From an uncultured Alphaproteobacteria bacterium (GTDB lineage Bacteria; Pseudomonadota; Alphaproteobacteria; HIMB59; GCA-002718135): a stretch of 32,119 bases of DNA. The position numbers were made by a program, and so were the translations under genes. Below are positions 554-12,945 of this stretch, in pieces (within the stretch, counting starts at the first letter, position 1; every line of letters starts with the position of its first letter). Location: NCBI GenBank assembly GCA_902512415.1, contig CABXJB010000009.1, positions 1 to 32,119 on the forward strand, given 5' to 3'. The notes beneath the pieces are model-generated. The model worked only from the letters and a program-made list of their open reading frames with translations. It did not search any database and was not told the DNA's origin.

Positions 554-1277
554 TTCCATCCAATATTTTTTGTGCTTCTTTTAAATCAATATTTCCTACA
601 TAAAAAGATTTCCCCGCTATTACGCCCTCAAGATTATCAGATTTTATAGTTTTTAGTTTTTCTAAGTCTGAATTGTTTTTCAATCCACCGCCAACAATAA
701 GTTTTTTATTTGTTAAGGATAAATTGGTTGAAATCATTTTCTGATTTAGGCCTGTAAGCATTCCGTCTTTTTCAATATCGGTAAGAACATAACCTCTTAT
801 GTTTGACTTGTCATATATTTGAAAAAGTTCTTCTGGTGTAAAATCACTTTCCTCGACCCAGCCCTTGATCATTATTTTATTATTTAAAATATCAAGAGCA
901 ACATAGATTTTTTTATTAAAATTTTCTGCTAATCTTTTAACTTCTTGACTATTACTAATTGCAAAAGATCCAATAATTAAATAATCAACACCTATATCAA
1001 AATAGTTTTTTGCAATAATCTCTGATCTTATTCCTCCACCAATCTGAATTGGTATTGAAATACCATCTCTGATTTTTTGAATTGTCTTATTATTTATATT
1101 GTTTCTTCCAAATGCTGAGTCAAGATCAACCAAATGTAAACGTTCACATCCCTGATCTTCAAAAAATTTCGCTTGCTCAACTGGGTTTTCATTAAAAACA
1201 ACACTGGTGTTATACTCACCCCTACTGAGTCTTACACATTTATTTTTTTTAAGATCGATCGCTGGAAAAATCTTCAC
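546..1277 (-). CDS. hisA: 1-(5-phosphoribosyl)-5-[(5-phosphoribosylamino)methylideneamino]imidazole-4-carboxamide isomerase HisA
   Basis: [52 protein letters not shown] motifs; his operon context. Confidence 0.96.
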
Positions 1278-1813
1278 TACAGGTCTTTAAAATAATAATA
1301 ACCCTTTATTCTTGTTCCATTAATAAAGGCATATGATGGATTTTCACCCCATTTAGCAAAGCCTTTGTTTTCAAAAAGCTGAATAGCCGCTGACTGGGTT
1401 TCTCTTATATCTAGTTGAATGCTTTTTTTATTATTTTCTTTTGAAATTTCAATCGCTTGGTCAATCATAGCTTTGGCTAAACCATAGCCCCTAGCCCAGG
1501 GTGCAACAAAATGTGATTGTATTTTAGAGATGTTTTTTTGAGCCTCATTATTTGGTGGATAAAAGGAGATTTGTGATGCTCCAGCAATAGTTCCGTTTAA
1601 TCTACCAACAATTAAAATGTTTGATTTAATTAAAACTAATCCATTCCAATATTTTTTTAAAGTTTCTATAGGTGGTATTGTTAACCAACCAAAACCTCCC
1701 CCGGCTTTAATTGCTTGTTCAGTAATGTTACAAAGATCAGCAAGATCAGTTTCAGAAACTACACTTAAGCTTTCAACGACTATGTTCATATTTTCTTTAG
1801 CTAGACTATTCAT
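1277..1813 (-). CDS. GNAT-family N-acetyltransferase encoded inside the his operon
   Basis: GNAT motif A-like HFVAPWARGYGLAKAMIDQAIEISKE and C-terminal AIQLFENKGFAKWGENPSYAF; overlaps hisA and hisH ends. Confidence 0.85.
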   Translation of the reverse strand: MNSLAKENMNIVVESLSVVSETDLADLCNITEQAIKAGGGFGWLTIPPIETLKKYWNGLVLIKSNILIVGRLNGTIAGASQISFYPPNNEAQKNISKIQSHFVAPWARGYGLAKAMIDQAIEISKENNKKSIQLDIRETQSAAIQLFENKGFAKWGENPSYAFINGTRIKGYYYFKDL

Positions 1814-5008: not shown

Positions 5009-6343
5009 TTGTTTGTGATTAAAAAAATACAAATAGAGTTATTAATATTCGCATTTTTGTTAATGAGTATTTTATTGACTAACAAAATTGATCTTAGTTT
5101 GTATGATCTTTTTTCAAACCTTAACTATGGTTATGGCTCGGTTTATTTAAAAGATTTTTTTGTTGGCATAACTGAGCTTGGAAACTCGTTTTGGTACTTT
5201 ACGTTTTTCGTCTTAATATTTTTGTTTTCTTATTTGGCTAAAATTAACGGCTTAGTCGTCTTAGAGAAATATTCCTATTTAAAAAGATTAAGTATTTTCG
5301 GTTTTACATATTTACTTTTAGTAGGTGTAATTACACAAATTGTTAAACATTTTGTAGGTCGACCTAGACCAAACCACGCCTTATTAGATGGTAGTTTTGA
5401 GTTTAGTTTTTTTACAGCTGAGTCGGCGTTTCATTCTTTTCCCTCTGGTCATACCTCAACAATTGTAGCCGTTACAATAATAGGGTCTTTGGCTCTTCCT
5501 GGCCTTAGGTATTTTTTTTATCTTTGTGGGTTTTTTATTGCATTAAGTAGGGTGGTTGTCGAAGCACATTTTTTTACCGATGTTTTTGGTGGCGCCCTTA
5601 TAGCTATTATAGTTTATAAAACTTTTGATTTTTTTATTAATACAAAATATACAAAACTTTATTGGGGTAATTTAGGTGCTGACAAAACCTCATTATTAAC
5701 AAAAATACTTATTGTTTTTTTTGTTTTAGCGGTTTTTACTACAGCTGGTCCCGATATAGATATGTATATTAGTAATTTTTTTTACTATGGTGCCAGCCAG
5801 TTCCATGTTCAAAGCTATAATCTTATTTCCATTCTTTTTAGGAAAATACTGCTTCCACTGCTTTTTATATATATTTTTATTCTCCCTCTATTTTTAGGGT
5901 TTTTGCCATTTCAAAAAATTTATTTTGATTATAGATTTTCTATATCAGAAATTGTTTTTGTCTGGACTACTGGAGCTTTTACAATGTTGCTAATTATAAA
6001 TATTTTGCTAAAAAATATGTGGGGAAGGGCAAGGCCTAATGATGTCCTGCCGTTTGGTGGAACTGAGAACTTCACTCCTTGGTATAAAATAAGTGACTCA
6101 TGTTTGACAAATTGCTCTTTTGTGTCTGGAGATTCTTCAGTCGGTTTTTTGTTAATAGTTTTTTATTTCATAACAAAGAAAAACATTTACCTTTATTTAA
6201 GTTTAGTTTTTGGCTCTTTTTTAGGTTTAATAAGAATCCTTGCAGGGGGGCACTTTTTTAGTGATATAGTTTTTTCTCAAATAGTTGTAACTATTTCTGT
6301 CCTGGTATCTTTTATTTTATATAAAAAATTATATGACAAATAA
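5009..6343 (+). CDS. Polytopic membrane protein with two tandem PAP2-type phosphatase domains
   Basis: First motif set KHFVGRPRP / FPSGHTST / SRVVVEAHFFTD; second set KNMWGRARP / FVSGDSS / RILAGGHFFSD; many hydrophobic segments; start TTG (or GTG at 5015) uncertain. Confidence 0.88.
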   Translation: MFVIKKIQIELLIFAFLLMSILLTNKIDLSLYDLFSNLNYGYGSVYLKDFFVGITELGNSFWYFTFFVLIFLFSYLAKINGLVVLEKYSYLKRLSIFGFTYLLLVGVITQIVKHFVGRPRPNHALLDGSFEFSFFTAESAFHSFPSGHTSTIVAVTIIGSLALPGLRYFFYLCGFFIALSRVVVEAHFFTDVFGGALIAIIVYKTFDFFINTKYTKLYWGNLGADKTSLLTKILIVFFVLAVFTTAGPDIDMYISNFFYYGASQFHVQSYNLISILFRKILLPLLFIYIFILPLFLGFLPFQKIYFDYRFSISEIVFVWTTGAFTMLLIINILLKNMWGRARPNDVLPFGGTENFTPWYKISDSCLTNCSFVSGDSSVGFLLIVFYFITKKNIYLYLSLVFGSFLGLIRILAGGHFFSDIVFSQIVVTISVLVSFILYKKLYDK

Positions 6344-7721
6344 GACCTTAACCTACTTAATATTTTTACTCATAATATTTAAAATAACAGCGATTTATTA
6401 TACAAACTTCGGTTTGTATGGTGATGAAGCTCAATATTGGTTGTGGTCTCAAACTCTTGATTTTGGATATTATTCAAAACCACCTCTGCTTGCTTGGTTT
6501 TTAAATGGGTATACTGGTGTGTTTGGAAGTTCTTTTATTTCATTAAAAATATTTCCTACTTTAGTTTATTTATTTATTTCTTATGCAATTTATGTGCTTT
6601 GCATCTCTTTATCACTTGATAAAAAAAGTTCTTGGTTGTGTGCTCTTAGTTTTTTAATTATTCCAGCAGCAAGCCTATCTTCTTTTTTAATATCAACAGA
6701 TTTGTTGCTATTATTGTTTTGGACAATATCAATGGTGCTGCTCTTGAAAACAATAAATGATAATTCTACCTTTGGTTTTTTGTTGTTAGGTTTGTTTTTG
6801 GGCTTAGCTTTTCTAGCAAAATATGCTGCTGTTTATTTTTTATTAAGTCTTTTTTTGTTATTAATAATAGACAAAAAAACTCTTATTGCCTTCAAAAATA
6901 GCCCGGTGGGCGTTCTTGTTTTTTTATTATCTTTTCTTTTGGTTTTGGCACCTAATGTTTGGTGGAATTTCAACAATGGTTGGGTTACGCTCTCTCACAC
7001 ATCTGATAATGCAAATTTACAAAATTTAAATTTTAATCTTTATGAGCCTCTAAAATTTATAGGGGCACAAATTATAATGGTGGGCCCATTTTTATTTTTC
7101 TCATTTGTTTTTTTTCTTAAATATTTTCGTTTGGATTTTGAAAATAAATTTTTATTAGCATTCTCTTTGCCTGTATTGTTAATTGTTTTAGTAGAAAGTT
7201 TTCTTGTTAGGGCTAATGCTAATTGGGCTGCTCCTGCATTAATATCTGTTTTTGTAATGTTGTTTAGGTTTGTTGATAATAAAAAAGCACATCTTATAAA
7301 AATAAATTTTGTTTTGAATTATTTTATTGCAATATGTTTGTTTGCTTCTGTTTTAATTTCATTAGATAATAAGGTGTTTGATCGAATAAAGGGCATAGAT
7401 GAATTTGCTGATGAAATTAATGGGATAATTAATGACAAAGACCTTGTGATTTCTGACCGAATTGTTTTTTCCAATATTTCTTATGAAATTCGAAATAAAC
7501 AAAACAGAGTGTTTATGCCTTATAAAAACAACGCTCCTGTGACAAATCATTTCCAAATGAGCTCCCCTTTAAAAAGTGATCGAAAAGATAGTTTTTTTCT
7601 AATTGGCAGTTTAAGTGATGTCTCTTATTTATCAAAAAAACACCAGGGTGAATTAATAAAAGAGTTTGGTGTCTCTTTTAGTTCAGACCCAATAAGGTTA
7701 TATGAAGTTAGTTTTAAATAG
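6333..7721 (+). CDS. GT39/ArnT-like membrane glycosyltransferase (PMT_2 family)
   Basis: N-terminal YGDEAQYWLWSQTLDFGYYSKPPLLAW typical of ArnT/PMT_2 enzymes; multiple TM segments. Confidence 0.88.
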   Translation: MTNKTLTYLIFLLIIFKITAIYYTNFGLYGDEAQYWLWSQTLDFGYYSKPPLLAWFLNGYTGVFGSSFISLKIFPTLVYLFISYAIYVLCISLSLDKKSSWLCALSFLIIPAASLSSFLISTDLLLLLFWTISMVLLLKTINDNSTFGFLLLGLFLGLAFLAKYAAVYFLLSLFLLLIIDKKTLIAFKNSPVGVLVFLLSFLLVLAPNVWWNFNNGWVTLSHTSDNANLQNLNFNLYEPLKFIGAQIIMVGPFLFFSFVFFLKYFRLDFENKFLLAFSLPVLLIVLVESFLVRANANWAAPALISVFVMLFRFVDNKKAHLIKINFVLNYFIAICLFASVLISLDNKVFDRIKGIDEFADEINGIINDKDLVISDRIVFSNISYEIRNKQNRVFMPYKNNAPVTNHFQMSSPLKSDRKDSFFLIGSLSDVSYLSKKHQGELIKEFGVSFSSDPIRLYEVSFK

Positions 7722-8373
7722 TTTTTTTCTTTCTTTGTTATTTTTTTGTGTTCCGGTTTTTGGCGAAGATTACCACAAAGAGTTTACAGTAAAAGTTTCG
7801 GGAATAAAAATTGGTAAATTAAATTGGACAATTAAAATTGATGATGATGAATTCTTTAATGATCTAAAGCTTAAAAGTGAGGGGGTTTTGTCTGGAATAT
7901 ATCGGTTCGAAGGAGAATATTTTTCAGAGGGTGTTTTTCAAAACAACAAACTAAAACCAACTAAATATAAACATGTCTGGATAACAAATAAAACAACTAA
8001 AAATATGAGTTTGATTTTTCAGGACGATAAATTAAAATCATTGAACCAAACACCTGTTGAAAAAGAAAAGTTAAGAATTAATGTTTTTAATATTAATCAA
8101 AGTAAAGACCCCCTAACCTCTTTTCTACAAATTATATTAGGTGAAAAAAATTCATTAGTTGTAGATGGAAGAAGAACATACGTGATGAACTCTATCTTTA
8201 ATAAAAAAACTGAACAAACTGTTGTTGAGATTTCAAAATATTCTAATTTATGGGCAGATCATAAAAGAAGAAAGTTTGAAAAACTAACTTTTGAAAAAAA
8301 AGATGGAGATTTTTTTCCTATTAAAATAAACATACACTTTGATGGGCGAGTTTTTAAATTAGAACAAAATTAG
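7702..8373 (+). CDS. DUF3108-type secreted protein
   Basis: Signal peptide-like N-terminus; EFTVKVSGIKIGKLNWTIKID...LKSEGVLSGIYRFEGEYFSEGVF pattern typical of DUF3108 proteins. Confidence 0.65.
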   Translation: MKLVLNSFFLSLLFFCVPVFGEDYHKEFTVKVSGIKIGKLNWTIKIDDDEFFNDLKLKSEGVLSGIYRFEGEYFSEGVFQNNKLKPTKYKHVWITNKTTKNMSLIFQDDKLKSLNQTPVEKEKLRINVFNINQSKDPLTSFLQIILGEKNSLVVDGRRTYVMNSIFNKKTEQTVVEISKYSNLWADHKRRKFEKLTFEKKDGDFFPIKINIHFDGRVFKLEQN

Positions 8374-8921
8374 TTTTTTTTCTTTCTAAGATAAACATAA
8401 AAGGCTCCGTCCCCACCATGCTCTATAGTGGCCTGATCAAAAGACAAAATATATTTAGAAAATTTATTTGATTTTACCCACTGGATAAAAGAAGACCTTA
8501 TTACGCCGTGGTAAAGTTTTGGTTTATCTCTGTTTTCTGAGTGTTTTAGTTTAAAAAGACCCTTGCCCGTTACGAACAACAAACATCTTTTACCGCCATT
8601 ATAACACTCTAGAATAGTGCTAGCAAATCTCTCTTCGGACTCTATTAGTGTTTTGCCATGAAAGTCTATTTTTTTATCAATATTGAACGAACCTTTCTTA
8701 ATACCTTTTTTTAAATCTACTTTTTCTAGATTAAATTCAGAATTTTTAATAGTTTTTTTAGGGTTAAAAAATTTATTGCCTGTTTGGTTTATTTTGTTTG
8801 TTTTGTTTGTTTTTACAAATGTGTAATTGGTTTTTGATGCTTCTTTATTAACTTTATTGTTTTTTTTTATAGGGCTTACACCCCTCATTTGTTTTAAAAA
8901 AAAATCATCACTATTTTTCAT
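8370..8921 (-). CDS. Smr/MutS2 C-terminal domain protein
   Basis: KIDFHGKTLIESEERF, LLFVTGKGL, LYHGVIRSSFIQWV, HGGDGAFYVYLRKKK: Smr domain motifs. Confidence 0.88.
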   Translation of the reverse strand: MKNSDDFFLKQMRGVSPIKKNNKVNKEASKTNYTFVKTNKTNKINQTGNKFFNPKKTIKNSEFNLEKVDLKKGIKKGSFNIDKKIDFHGKTLIESEERFASTILECYNGGKRCLLFVTGKGLFKLKHSENRDKPKLYHGVIRSSFIQWVKSNKFSKYILSFDQATIEHGGDGAFYVYLRKKKN

Positions 8922-9345
8922 TTTTTAAAAATACATTTATTAAATTTTTTACCCTCATTGGGGTTTGTTTATACCAAAGGCTGTCCATCATTTCAAAACA
9001 AACAAGATACACGTTACCATTGCTCATGTTTTGTAATAGGTTTTTAAACTTAAAAACGCCCCTTGTCCCTATTTGAAAAACCATTTCAATTAGCAGCTCG
9101 GCTTCTTTTTTGTTAGAAGAAAATTGCTTTAAAAAAATATTAAAGTTTTTTAATGCTTTATTAAAATCTTGTTGAAATATATTTTCTAACTCTGCTTTGT
9201 TAACTTTTTTTTCTAATAGATTTTTTTCATTTGGTAAAATTAGGTGACCATAACCTATTGTTAAAAAGCCTAACTGATCTTTATATGGTTTAAGTGAAAG
9301 CCCCTCATTGTGTTTAATTCTGTTTTTTAGATTATAGTAACTCAA
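8911..9345 (-). CDS. T4-type lysozyme (GH24-like muramidase); ORF can extend to TTG at 9402
   Basis: NEGLSLKPYKDQLGFLTIGYGH reproduces E11/D20/T26 spacing of T4 lysozyme; LLIEMVFQIGTRGVFKF and SLWYKQTPMRVKNLINVF match the T4 lysozyme C-terminal lobe (recalled sequence). TTG at 9345 lies just past the tim44 stop. Confidence 0.88.
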   Translation of the reverse strand: MSYYNLKNRIKHNEGLSLKPYKDQLGFLTIGYGHLILPNEKNLLEKKVNKAELENIFQQDFNKALKNFNIFLKQFSSNKKEAELLIEMVFQIGTRGVFKFKNLLQNMSNGNVYLVCFEMMDSLWYKQTPMRVKNLINVFLKNEK

Positions 9346-9349
9346 ATTT

Positions 9350-9931
9350 CTAAGTTGATATAAGTGTCCAGGCTGGTCCGCTTGACTGTTCGGGTTTTTC
9401 AAAAACCCATGTGTCTTTATTTTTTACCACATCTTCTTCATTGTCACTTAAAACTTGCTCACTTATAAAATTTACACTTATAGTTATTTTTCCATTTTCA
9501 ACCTTAGCATCATCAATGCCGTCAATAACCAAAGAATAAAATTGAGCGTTAGGGTTGTTGGTGCCTTCATTAATAGCCTTTTCAAAAACATTATAAACAT
9601 TTTTTGAAACAAGGCCCTTAAGAGTGTTTTTATCCCCTTTATTAAAAGCAGTAATAATAATTTCAAAAGCCTTTTTTGCCCCTTCTAAAAATGATTTATG
9701 TTCAAAAGAAGCTATGTGTTTGTATACAACCTCAAGCTTTTGCTCATTTTCTCTTAGTTGAGGAATTTGTACTTCTTGTTGCACAGATTGTTTTTTTACA
9801 AATTGTTGTTCAGTTGGTTTTTTTTGAAACCCCGTTCTTTTACCAAGAACACTTCTGAGTCGATAAATAATAAAAACAGCAATTACAGCAAAGATAATAA
9901 TATCAAAAAACTGTAAATCTCCATAAACCAT
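9350..9931 (-). CDS. Tim44/TimA-like domain inner membrane protein
   Basis: N-terminal TM (FFDIIIFAVIAVFIIYRLRSVLGKRTG), Tim44-like domain FLEGAKKAFEIIITAFNKGDKNTLKGLVSKNVYNVFEKAI. Confidence 0.9.
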   Translation of the reverse strand: MVYGDLQFFDIIIFAVIAVFIIYRLRSVLGKRTGFQKKPTEQQFVKKQSVQQEVQIPQLRENEQKLEVVYKHIASFEHKSFLEGAKKAFEIIITAFNKGDKNTLKGLVSKNVYNVFEKAINEGTNNPNAQFYSLVIDGIDDAKVENGKITISVNFISEQVLSDNEEDVVKNKDTWVFEKPEQSSGPAWTLIST

Positions 9932-9960: not shown

Positions 9961-10641
9961 TTAATAGTCATATTTTTTCCAAATAGGTTGTTTTATTTGC
10001 TTTACCATTTCTTTGTGAAGGGCTGTGTCTTTCTCAGACGTTATAAAGCTTGTTGTGGTTTTTGGGTTATTTTTTTTGGTGTTTTCTTCTTTGTTTTTTT
10101 CTTTATTATTTTTTAAGAGGTTCATTGAAAACTGTTTGCCCCCTTTCAACTCTAAATAAACCTCTGCCAATAGCCTAGAATCTAATAAAGCTCCGTGCAA
10201 ATCTCTTTCTGATAAATCAACTTTAAATCTTCTACATAGATAATCTAAATTGGCAACGCGTGTGTTTAAAACGTGTCTTGCTAAAGAAACCGTATCAATT
10301 ACTGGGTTTGAAAGCTTGGGCCTTCCTAATAATGATAACTCGTTGTTTAGAAAACCAACATCAAAATCGGCATTATGTATAATAAGGGGATCGTTATCAA
10401 TAAATTTTAAAAACTCATCACAGTGATCGTTGAAATTTTTTTTATCACTTAAAAACTTATTTGTAATTCCTGTAATTTTTTGAGCCCCTTCTGATATTTC
10501 TTTGTCTACCTTACAATAAAACTGTAGTGAGTTGTTAGTAGTAATATGATTAAGCAGCTCTACACAACCAACCTCTATAACCCTATCCCCGGTTTTATAG
10601 CTTAGGCCTGTTGTTTCTGTATCAATTACTATTTCTCTCAT
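9961..10641 (-). CDS. dnaQ: DNA polymerase III epsilon subunit
   Basis: REIVIDTETTGLSYKTGDRVIEVGCVEL, HNADFDVGFLNNEL, RDLHGALLDSRLLAEVYLEL. Confidence 0.96.
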   Translation of the reverse strand: MREIVIDTETTGLSYKTGDRVIEVGCVELLNHITTNNSLQFYCKVDKEISEGAQKITGITNKFLSDKKNFNDHCDEFLKFIDNDPLIIHNADFDVGFLNNELSLLGRPKLSNPVIDTVSLARHVLNTRVANLDYLCRRFKVDLSERDLHGALLDSRLLAEVYLELKGGKQFSMNLLKNNKEKNKEENTKKNNPKTTTSFITSEKDTALHKEMVKQIKQPIWKKYDY

Positions 10642-11228
10642 TTTAGAAGTCCTATTAAAGCTTTTTCAGCACTAAAGATAAAGTCTTTTTTTGTTTTGTT
10701 GTTATTAATTATAATTTGTGAACGCCTTCTTCTTTCTTTGTCTGAAGTTTGTGCGCTAAATATTTTATTAAGAATTTTTTTTGTAAACTTCTTTTTTTTC
10801 AAAACCCTCTGTGTTCTGTTGTTTTTTGAAGAAATAATACAAACAACTAAATCAAATTTTGTTTCAAGTTTATTTTCTAATAGAAGTGGGATGTCTGCAA
10901 AAATAATCTTCTTCTTGAGGTTTTTTTGGATAAACTTTTCTCTCGACTTTTGAACCTCGTTGTGAATATATTTTTCTAAAATAATTTTAGCTTTTAAATT
11001 ACTAAAAATTATATTTGTTATTTTTTTTTTATTGGCTTTGTTTTTTTGTATGGCTTCTTTTGAAATATTTTCTTTAATAAAACTAATAAAGGATTTGCTT
11101 GGCTTGGTGTACATATCTGAAACAACCTCGTCTGATTCATGAACTAAAAATCCTGTTTTTTTTAAATAGTCAGAAAGGGTTGTTTTTCCCGATCCTATTC
11201 CGCCGGTAATAGCAACAATTTTTGTCAT
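10638..11228 (-). CDS. coaE: Dephospho-CoA kinase
   Basis: AITGGIGSGKTTLSDYL P-loop, HESDEVV, FADIPLLLE. Confidence 0.95.
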   Translation of the reverse strand: MTKIVAITGGIGSGKTTLSDYLKKTGFLVHESDEVVSDMYTKPSKSFISFIKENISKEAIQKNKANKKKITNIIFSNLKAKIILEKYIHNEVQKSREKFIQKNLKKKIIFADIPLLLENKLETKFDLVVCIISSKNNRTQRVLKKKKFTKKILNKIFSAQTSDKERRRRSQIIINNNKTKKDFIFSAEKALIGLLK

Positions 11229-12010
11229 TTTATTTTATTATTAATTTTTTTTAAAAGAAAAACATCGACCTTGGGAGCAAAACCAAACCACTGATAAAAG
11301 CAAAGAATGGCCTGTTCTATCAACATTGAAATGCCGTAGATTTTTTTATTTCCTTTAAATTTTTGAAGAAAGAGAGTGTTTTTTGGTTTGTAAACAATAT
11401 CGCTAATTATAGTGCTTTTTTTTATAAGATTAATTTGTTGTTTATTAAGGGGGTTTGTTGGTGTTGTGTTTATTATTAAATCTGCGTCACACAAATAAGC
11501 ATCAATTAAAGAATATTTTTTAGTATATTTATTAGTGCCGTTTATTTTGATTGCTTTTTTTGAGCGATTAAAAACATTTATGTTTTTGTAACCTTTAAAA
11601 TTAAAGCCATAATAAATTGCTTGTGAGGCCCCTCCGCAACCTAATATTAAAATATTTTTATTTTTGTTTATTTTTTCTTCTTTTATGGAGTTTAAATATC
11701 CTCTCCAATCAGTGTTTATTCCTTTTATTTTTTTCCCAACCGTCACACAATTAACAGCGCCAATTTTTTTGGCATGAATATTTTTACTATCAAGGTGCTT
11801 TAAAATATTTTTTTTAAATGGAATTGTAACATTAAGGCCATGTGTGTTTTTATCTTGTATTTTTTTAGTTAAAGTTTTATCAAAATTTTTTTTTGTAACC
11901 TCTGTAAAAAAATATTTAGCCTGAATATTATATTTTTTAAACCAATAATTAAATATTAGGGGCGAAATACTTTTAGAAGCATTATTACCAATAACAAAAA
12001 AATGTTTCAT
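11225..12010 (-). CDS. aroE: Shikimate dehydrogenase
   Basis: SISPLIFNYWFKKY, GLNVTIPFKKNILKHLD, GAVNCV, GINTDWRGYL, GCGGASQAIYYG, SDIVYKPKNTLFLQ. Confidence 0.95.
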   Translation of the reverse strand: MKHFFVIGNNASKSISPLIFNYWFKKYNIQAKYFFTEVTKKNFDKTLTKKIQDKNTHGLNVTIPFKKNILKHLDSKNIHAKKIGAVNCVTVGKKIKGINTDWRGYLNSIKEEKINKNKNILILGCGGASQAIYYGFNFKGYKNINVFNRSKKAIKINGTNKYTKKYSLIDAYLCDADLIINTTPTNPLNKQQINLIKKSTIISDIVYKPKNTLFLQKFKGNKKIYGISMLIEQAILCFYQWFGFAPKVDVFLLKKINNKIK

Positions 12011-12013
12011 TTT

Positions 12014-12604
12014 TTATACCTTAGACAAAAAAGATAAAAATGGAAACAAAGGAAAGCCCAAAACATTAAAGAAGTCTCCATTAATTGATTTTATAATATG
12101 TGGTCCTAGCTTTTCTACTTGATAACAACCAACAGAATATAAAATTTGTTTGCCTGTTTTTTTTAAATAATTGTTAATTTGTTTTTGGTTAAGTTTTTTT
12201 ATTTGTATTGTTGATGTTTGTTGTGAAGACCAGATTTGTTTATTTTTATAACACACAGAAACACCGGATATAATTTGGTGTTTTTTGCCTGATAGTTTTT
12301 GTAATTTTTTTTTTGCTTCCTCAAGTGTGTTTGCTTTGTTTATTATCATGTTGTTAAAAATAATTATAGTATCGGACCCAACAACAAGCTGGTTTGGTCT
12401 CTTTAGACTTACACTTAAAGCTTTTTCTTTTGCCAATAGTTTGGGAAGTATTTTTTTGTTAGTTGATTTTTGAATTAGCTGACGCTTTATGTGTTCTTCA
12501 TTACAAAGGGGTGGGGTTGTGGTAAAATTAAGACCGGCATTTTTTAAAAGCCTGTATCTTGATGCACTATTACTGGCTAAAATAAATGGTTTGTTTAAAA
12601 ACAT
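12014..12604 (-). CDS. maf: Maf-family nucleotide pyrophosphatase; start adjusted to ATG at 12604
   Basis: FILASNSASRYRLLKNAGLNF, VVGSDTIIIFNN, SGKKHQIISGVSV, INGDFFNVLGFPL. Confidence 0.92.
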   Translation of the reverse strand: MFLNKPFILASNSASRYRLLKNAGLNFTTTPPLCNEEHIKRQLIQKSTNKKILPKLLAKEKALSVSLKRPNQLVVGSDTIIIFNNMIINKANTLEEAKKKLQKLSGKKHQIISGVSVCYKNKQIWSSQQTSTIQIKKLNQKQINNYLKKTGKQILYSVGCYQVEKLGPHIIKSINGDFFNVLGFPLFPFLSFLSKV

Positions 12605-12945
12605 GTGCACAACACAGATAGTTATAAACATAATTATTTTTTTTTAAATTTATTATTGAAATAATTAAAACTTATATTTTTTAATAAACAAAAAATTAAT
12701 TAGACAAAAAAACATTAAGAGGCTGTGTTTAACAACTTATTAGAATTTATTAACAAGTTGTTGTCTTTTTAAAATTTTTAAATTCTTGGTTTTCTGGGTT
12801 TTGTTTGACTTTTGTTTGTTTTTAATAACTTAGGAATAAGTTTATACATTACTTTTATTTTGTTAATAATTCAAAGAAATAAAGGAATTAATGTGATTCA
12901 CTTTACAACTATAACTACTACTTAATAATATAATAAATATATATT
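12605..12945. other. Candidate chromosomal replication origin region (AT-rich divergent intergenic region between maf and rho)
   Basis: Very AT-rich; genes diverge from it for >4 kb each side; the flanking set maf-aroE-coaE-dnaQ / rho-mnmE-mnmG-rsmG-parAB is the classic alphaproteobacterial ori-proximal set; near-DnaA-box words TTATAAACA (12622-12630) and TGTGTTTAA (12724-12732), each one mismatch from TTATNCACA. Confidence 0.55.
12731..12762. repeat. Dyad AACAACTT ... AAGTTGTT with repeated TTAACAA spaced 21 bp
   Basis: AACAACTT at 12731-12738 and AAGTTGTT at 12755-12762; TTAACAA at 12729 and 12750. Confidence 0.6.

Follow-up and report, generated by a model that had tools for sequence, protein, structure and literature searches.

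A phage-type lysozyme gene in the tim44-smr slot of a housekeeping operon in a family of marine alphaproteobacteria

RESULTS

The window analyzed here is the whole 32,119-nucleotide stretch of contig CABXJB010000009.1 (assembly GCA_902512415.1) from an uncultured alphaproteobacterium. On its minus strand, positions 8911 to 9345 encode a GH24 (T4-type) lysozyme of 144 amino acids that begins with a TTG codon, an assignment based on a match to PF00959, a T4-like predicted fold, and the start shared by 79/79 relatives. Upstream in the operon is the gene for a Tim44/TimA-like membrane protein (9350 to 9931, minus strand; PF04280, 4.4e-20; NF033779, 8e-43, over the cutoff), which is itself preceded by a housekeeping run of dnaQ-, coaE-, aroE-, and maf-like genes (9961 to 12631, minus strand; Pfam assignments, with the same order in relatives). 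Downstream is the gene for an Smr domain protein (8370 to 8921, minus strand; PF01713, 9.3e-15), which overlaps the end of the lysozyme gene, including its stop codon, by 11 bases. These matches bear out the initial annotation, which had placed the lysozyme between tim44-like and smr genes in an otherwise housekeeping operon. It had also reported no phage genes nearby, and we found housekeeping neighbors on both sides in 79 bacterial loci taken from named public genomes. Most of these genomes are from the open ocean and labeled as uncultured Alphaproteobacteria or Pelagibacteraceae, and the order dnaQ-tim44-lysozyme-smr-DUF3108 is present in 79/79 of the loci.

The lysozyme gene is shorter than first described. 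The open reading frame originally given as 8911 to 9402 is real and lies on the minus strand (the plus strand of this stretch has many stops), but its start was misplaced, and the coding sequence is 8911 to 9345. Residues 1 to 19 of the longer frame are mostly the tail of tim44 read in another frame. The junction between the two genes (9343 to 9352, minus strand) consists of the tim44 stop codon TAG (9352 to 9350), four bases, and the lysozyme TTG (9345 to 9343). Reading back from the catalytic Glu codon, the first start encountered in 79/79 relatives is a TTG ~13 codons upstream, and in 71/79 this TTG is the sole ATG, GTG, or TTG on offer before that codon. The gap between the tim44 stop and the TTG is 3 to 4 nucleotides in 71/79 relatives, the commonest sequence being TAATATTTG. 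In contrast with the TTG start of 79/79 host genes, 73 of 76 phage and viral homologues start with ATG.

The predicted protein matches Pfam Phage_lysozyme (PF00959) at 1.3e-12 over profile positions 1 to 118 of 125, with a score of 48.6 bits versus a cutoff of 22.3, and it is the only match to this family in its own genome, which is ~62% complete. T4 lysozyme had initially been aligned by eye along the entire length of the protein, and phmmer reproduces this alignment with T4 entries over nearly the whole domain (E, ~1e-15). The E11/D20/T26 spacing of the T4 active site, also recognized at that stage, is found in the corrected 144-residue protein as E14 (codon at 9304 to 9306), D23 (9277 to 9279), and T29 (9259 to 9261; all minus strand), and the catalytic E/D/T motif is intact in the lysozymes of 79/79 relatives. 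An AlphaFold2 model built on a 14-sequence family alignment (pLDDT of 90) has a predicted two-lobed T4 lysozyme fold, and T4 lysozyme entries are its closest matches in the PDB (TM scores of 0.83 to 0.86). Based on family, predicted fold, and active site, we conclude that the product of 8911 to 9345 is a GH24 (T4-type) lysozyme, for which muramidase activity is predicted.

We surveyed 120 genomes of the order, which we take to be HIMB59/AEGEAN-169: 68 from the window's family (f1) and 52 from a sister family (f2), which presumably contains the complete isolate HIMB59. The lysozyme was found in 59/68 f1 genomes and in 59/59 of those holding tim44. The lysozyme and tim44 are missing from precisely the same nine f1 genomes, a sign of incomplete assembly. 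In f2, the lysozyme was found in 0/52 genomes. The tim44-smr slot also holds the lysozyme in 30/30 loci of the order survey. Elsewhere in the class, GH24 was found beside tim44 at 0 of 28 loci (tim44 within 1.5 kb) outside the window's family, and the only two GH24 loci of the class survey with tim44 within 1.5 kb both belong to that family. Within these samples, GH24 in the tim44-smr slot is confined to f1. A prophage or contamination is ruled out by the identical synteny of the 79 loci and by the trees described below, in which the host copies form a single clade.

Two further features of the window were recorded. Positions 5009 to 8373 (plus strand) encode a PAP2 phosphatase (matched in two stretches) together with a PMT-type glycosyltransferase and a DUF3108 protein, which form a block between hslU and smr in f1. 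In f2, smr directly abuts hslU, so the block was either inserted in f1 or lost in f2. A small open reading frame at 1277 to 1813 (minus strand), which by eye resembles a GNAT acetyltransferase, lies between apparent hisA and hisH genes of the histidine operon.

The initial annotation held that in many alphaproteobacteria the slot, as tim44-mltA-smr, is occupied by the lytic transglycosylase MltA (PF03562). The tim44-mltA part of this premise is firm, while the part concerning smr is weaker. In our class survey, MltA was present in 154/210 alphaproteobacterial genomes, and tim44 adjoins MltA in 30/30 readable loci. An smr gene is also there in at least 6 of these 30, which is a lower bound because the smr profile probably failed to recognize the more divergent Smr proteins of GC-rich genomes, and several of the 30 have another gene after mltA. 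MltA was not found in the window's own genome or across the order (0/120 genomes), and no prophage surrounds the lysozyme. A hidden or degenerate MltA was considered and rejected, the 3D domain being found in 0/60 genomes of the order.

The further proposal that the lysozyme displaced MltA is not supported by these comparisons. The f2 gene run is rho-maf-aroE-coaE-dnaQ-tim44-smr-hslU-hslV, in which tim44 abuts smr with no gene between. The f2 genomes have neither gene, and the gain of the lysozyme is not seen to coincide with the loss of MltA. Among 20 genomes from elsewhere in the class that were picked for having tim44 and lacking MltA, at least 9 likewise have tim44 directly beside smr. Together with the junction in f2, this shows that MltA has often been lost without replacement. 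In addition, SLT- and MltB-type transglycosylases are kept in both f1 and f2. We conclude that the lysozyme probably sits in an emptied mltA slot: it is right to say that it stands in the place of MltA and unproven that it replaced MltA, and displacement is no likelier than loss of MltA followed later by filling of the slot. In two class genomes without MltA (L306 and L313), the slot is rearranged, with tim44 and an smr-like open reading frame ~1 to 2 kb apart on opposite strands and other sequence between them.

The best matches of the lysozyme among sequenced phages are pelagiphages, at no more than 44% identity. A maximum-likelihood tree of 123 sequences groups the f1 lysozymes in one clade (support of 100/100) within marine phage lysozymes, and a viral contig, L152, is the sister of this host clade (99/95). 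A second tree, from which distant rows were left out, agrees (host clade, 100/99; L152 as sister, 95/93). The phage origin proposed initially is thus upheld by two trees in which the host copies are one clade nested among phage lysozymes. Because the host stem is long and the alignment has only 143 columns, the tree does not pin down the exact donor phage. T4 itself is ruled out as donor by the phage matches and the tree, the nearest lysozymes being marine and pelagiphage-like. Based on these phylogenies, we conclude that the f1 ancestor acquired its GH24 gene once, from a pelagiphage-type marine phage, and that this acquisition is old, with the gene inherited in a fixed slot since then. A lysozyme of the same group on a contig titled as a Maricaulis sp. 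metagenome-assembled genome (L300) was considered as a further host copy and rejected, since it lies beside a three-transmembrane holin among phage-like genes with no tim44; the contig is probably a mis-binned phage or prophage.

The median dN/dS of the lysozyme is 0.098 (1,799 pairs with unsaturated dS), within the range of its neighbors (tim44, 0.051; dnaQ, 0.061; coaE, 0.128; smr, 0.139; DUF3108, 0.237), which indicates that it is under purifying selection. Its fixed TTG, 3 to 4 bases past the tim44 stop, compared with the ATG of phage homologues, suggests re-initiation after tim44 and low expression. As judged from this arrangement, the translation of the lysozyme is likely coupled to that of tim44.

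In agreement with the initial annotation, we found no signal peptide or transmembrane segment. The maximum 19-residue hydropathy within residues 1 to 43 is 0.84, and no hydrophobic segment would suit a signal or SAR helix. On the viral sister contig, a GTA_holin_3TM holin gene comes right after the lysozyme, and an open reading frame related to this holin occurs in 21/80 viral loci. The host gene lacks the arrangement of a phage endolysin cassette: it is flanked by tim44 and smr rather than by a holin, it has no signal or SAR sequence, and GTA_holin_3TM was found in only 2/120 genomes of the order. These two holin genes (L301, G118:C5:74119-74457; L302, G108:C11:38434-38616) are probably on phage contigs or in prophages.

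DISCUSSION

We tentatively favor, with slightly less than even confidence, the interpretation that the f1 lysozyme is a domesticated phage muramidase that acts on the host's own wall, is weakly translated, and is kept throughout the family. The f1 ancestor gained a GH24 gene from a marine phage once, by insertion between tim44-like and smr. The gene would be translated weakly, by re-initiation after tim44 from the family-fixed TTG, and its product, lacking a signal peptide and a dedicated holin, would be synthesized in the cytoplasm. Small amounts of the muramidase may cross the inner membrane and cut MurNAc-GlcNAc bonds of the host wall, which would add an autolysin that cuts glycan strands to the remaining SLT and MltB transglycosylases. 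Two observations count against this interpretation. With no signal or transmembrane segment, and with the holin family so rare in the order, access to peptidoglycan is unexplained; and f2, which has neither MltA nor the lysozyme, shows that such a way of life does not depend on the activity.

A somewhat unlikely alternative, although one to be taken seriously, is that the lysozyme is a cytoplasmic lysis reserve, an active enzyme sealed in the cytoplasm that cuts the wall only once the inner membrane has failed, at death or through the holin of an infecting phage, and that would then speed lysis and the release of cell contents. The host enzyme is leaderless like that of T4, which needs a holin to reach the wall, and a weak TTG start fits low-level storage; moreover, the sister lysozyme on L152 lies beside a GTA_holin_3TM gene, yet host genomes almost never carry one. 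However, a gene useful only at death would be hard to keep at a dN/dS of 0.10 across a family, and the fixed place just behind tim44 is left unaccounted for. We are more doubtful of a direct non-orthologous displacement, in which mltA still occupied the slot when the lysozyme took over and the replacement was later lost from f2. The gene does occupy mltA's slot in an order that lacks MltA (and, in the 60 genomes searched, the 3D domain), and the two enzymes cleave the same bond. MltA, however, is an exported lipoprotein that yields 1,6-anhydro products, while GH24 enzymes hydrolyze and this one has no export signal; loss without replacement is common, as shown by the empty junctions in f2 and at least 9 other MltA-less genomes; and SLT and MltB remain.

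It is improbable that the enzyme works in the cytoplasm on something other than the wall, for example in muropeptide recycling or antiphage action. The missing export signal and the non-wall housekeeping neighbors would agree with such a role, but the fully conserved E/D/T residues and the two-lobed lysozyme fold point to polymeric peptidoglycan as the substrate. It is very improbable that the enzyme is an endolysin belonging to a gene transfer agent or to what remains of a prophage: the weak match to the Bartonella gene transfer agent endolysin model NF058676 that would favor it reaches 46 bits, far below the equivalog cutoff of 315, the HK97-type capsid (PF05065) was not found in 60 genomes of the order, and the genes flanking the lysozyme in 79 loci are housekeeping rather than phage genes. 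Finally, a long shot, made attractive by the wall hydrolases that lie beside tim44 across most of the class, is that the Tim44-like protein is a conserved partner of the adjacent hydrolase (MltA elsewhere, the lysozyme here) and tethers or helps to export the leaderless lysozyme, which would be translated from their shared message by re-initiation.

Among the closest known enzymes, the lysozymes of pelagiphages HTVC119P, HTVC200P, HTVC111P, and EXVC032P Baldr are 37 to 44% identical to the host copy, and the pelagiphage and L152 enzymes are also leaderless GH24 proteins of about 140 to 150 amino acids. In contrast, they are encoded in phage genomes, nearly all with ATG starts, whereas the host copy is a vertically inherited chromosomal gene with a TTG behind tim44 and no holin. 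T4 lysozyme (gene e) shares the fold, the E/D/T active site, and cytoplasmic synthesis without a signal, but it is only ~33% identical and T4 has its own holin. MltA resembles the lysozyme in its genomic place beside tim44 and in the peptidoglycan glycosidic bond that it cuts, and differs in its unrelated fold, its lytic transglycosylase chemistry, and its export as a lipoprotein.

When phage lysins occur in bacterial chromosomes, they usually belong to prophages, gene transfer agents, or secretion islets. A muramidase in a specific bacterial use is known from the typhoid toxin secretion islet of Salmonella Typhi, TtsA (PMC6996933), and type 10 secretion systems have been described as descendants of phage lysis cassettes (PMC13284979). 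Like the host lysozyme, TtsA is a chromosomal muramidase turned to bacterial use, but it belongs to another family and serves the secretion of one protein in a pathogen, whereas the bacteria that carry the host lysozyme are free-living, and its gene lies in a housekeeping operon and has no known secreted partner. We take TtsA to be a GH108 enzyme. In the literature searched, we found no description of a T4-type lysozyme that is inherited vertically throughout a lineage as part of a housekeeping operon, in the usual MltA slot and with a fixed TTG, and no paper joining MltA with Tim44, MltA with phage lysozyme in alphaproteobacteria, or TimA, Tim44, and Caulobacter. Lysozyme and peptidoglycan are both absent from the text of the AEGEAN-169/HIMB59 genome paper. 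The GH24 family itself is long established and familiar.

Here, a phage lysin is a standing gene across a whole family of genome-streamlined ocean bacteria, where it shares an operon with a bacterial relative of mitochondrial Tim44. This raises the question of how a leaderless lysozyme reaches, or safely avoids, the cell's own wall. Its position beside tim44 suggests that Tim44-like proteins and wall hydrolases are linked, as the pairing of tim44 with mltA had already hinted, and if the Tim44-like protein is indeed its partner, this would be an export route for a phage enzyme that needs neither a holin nor a signal peptide.
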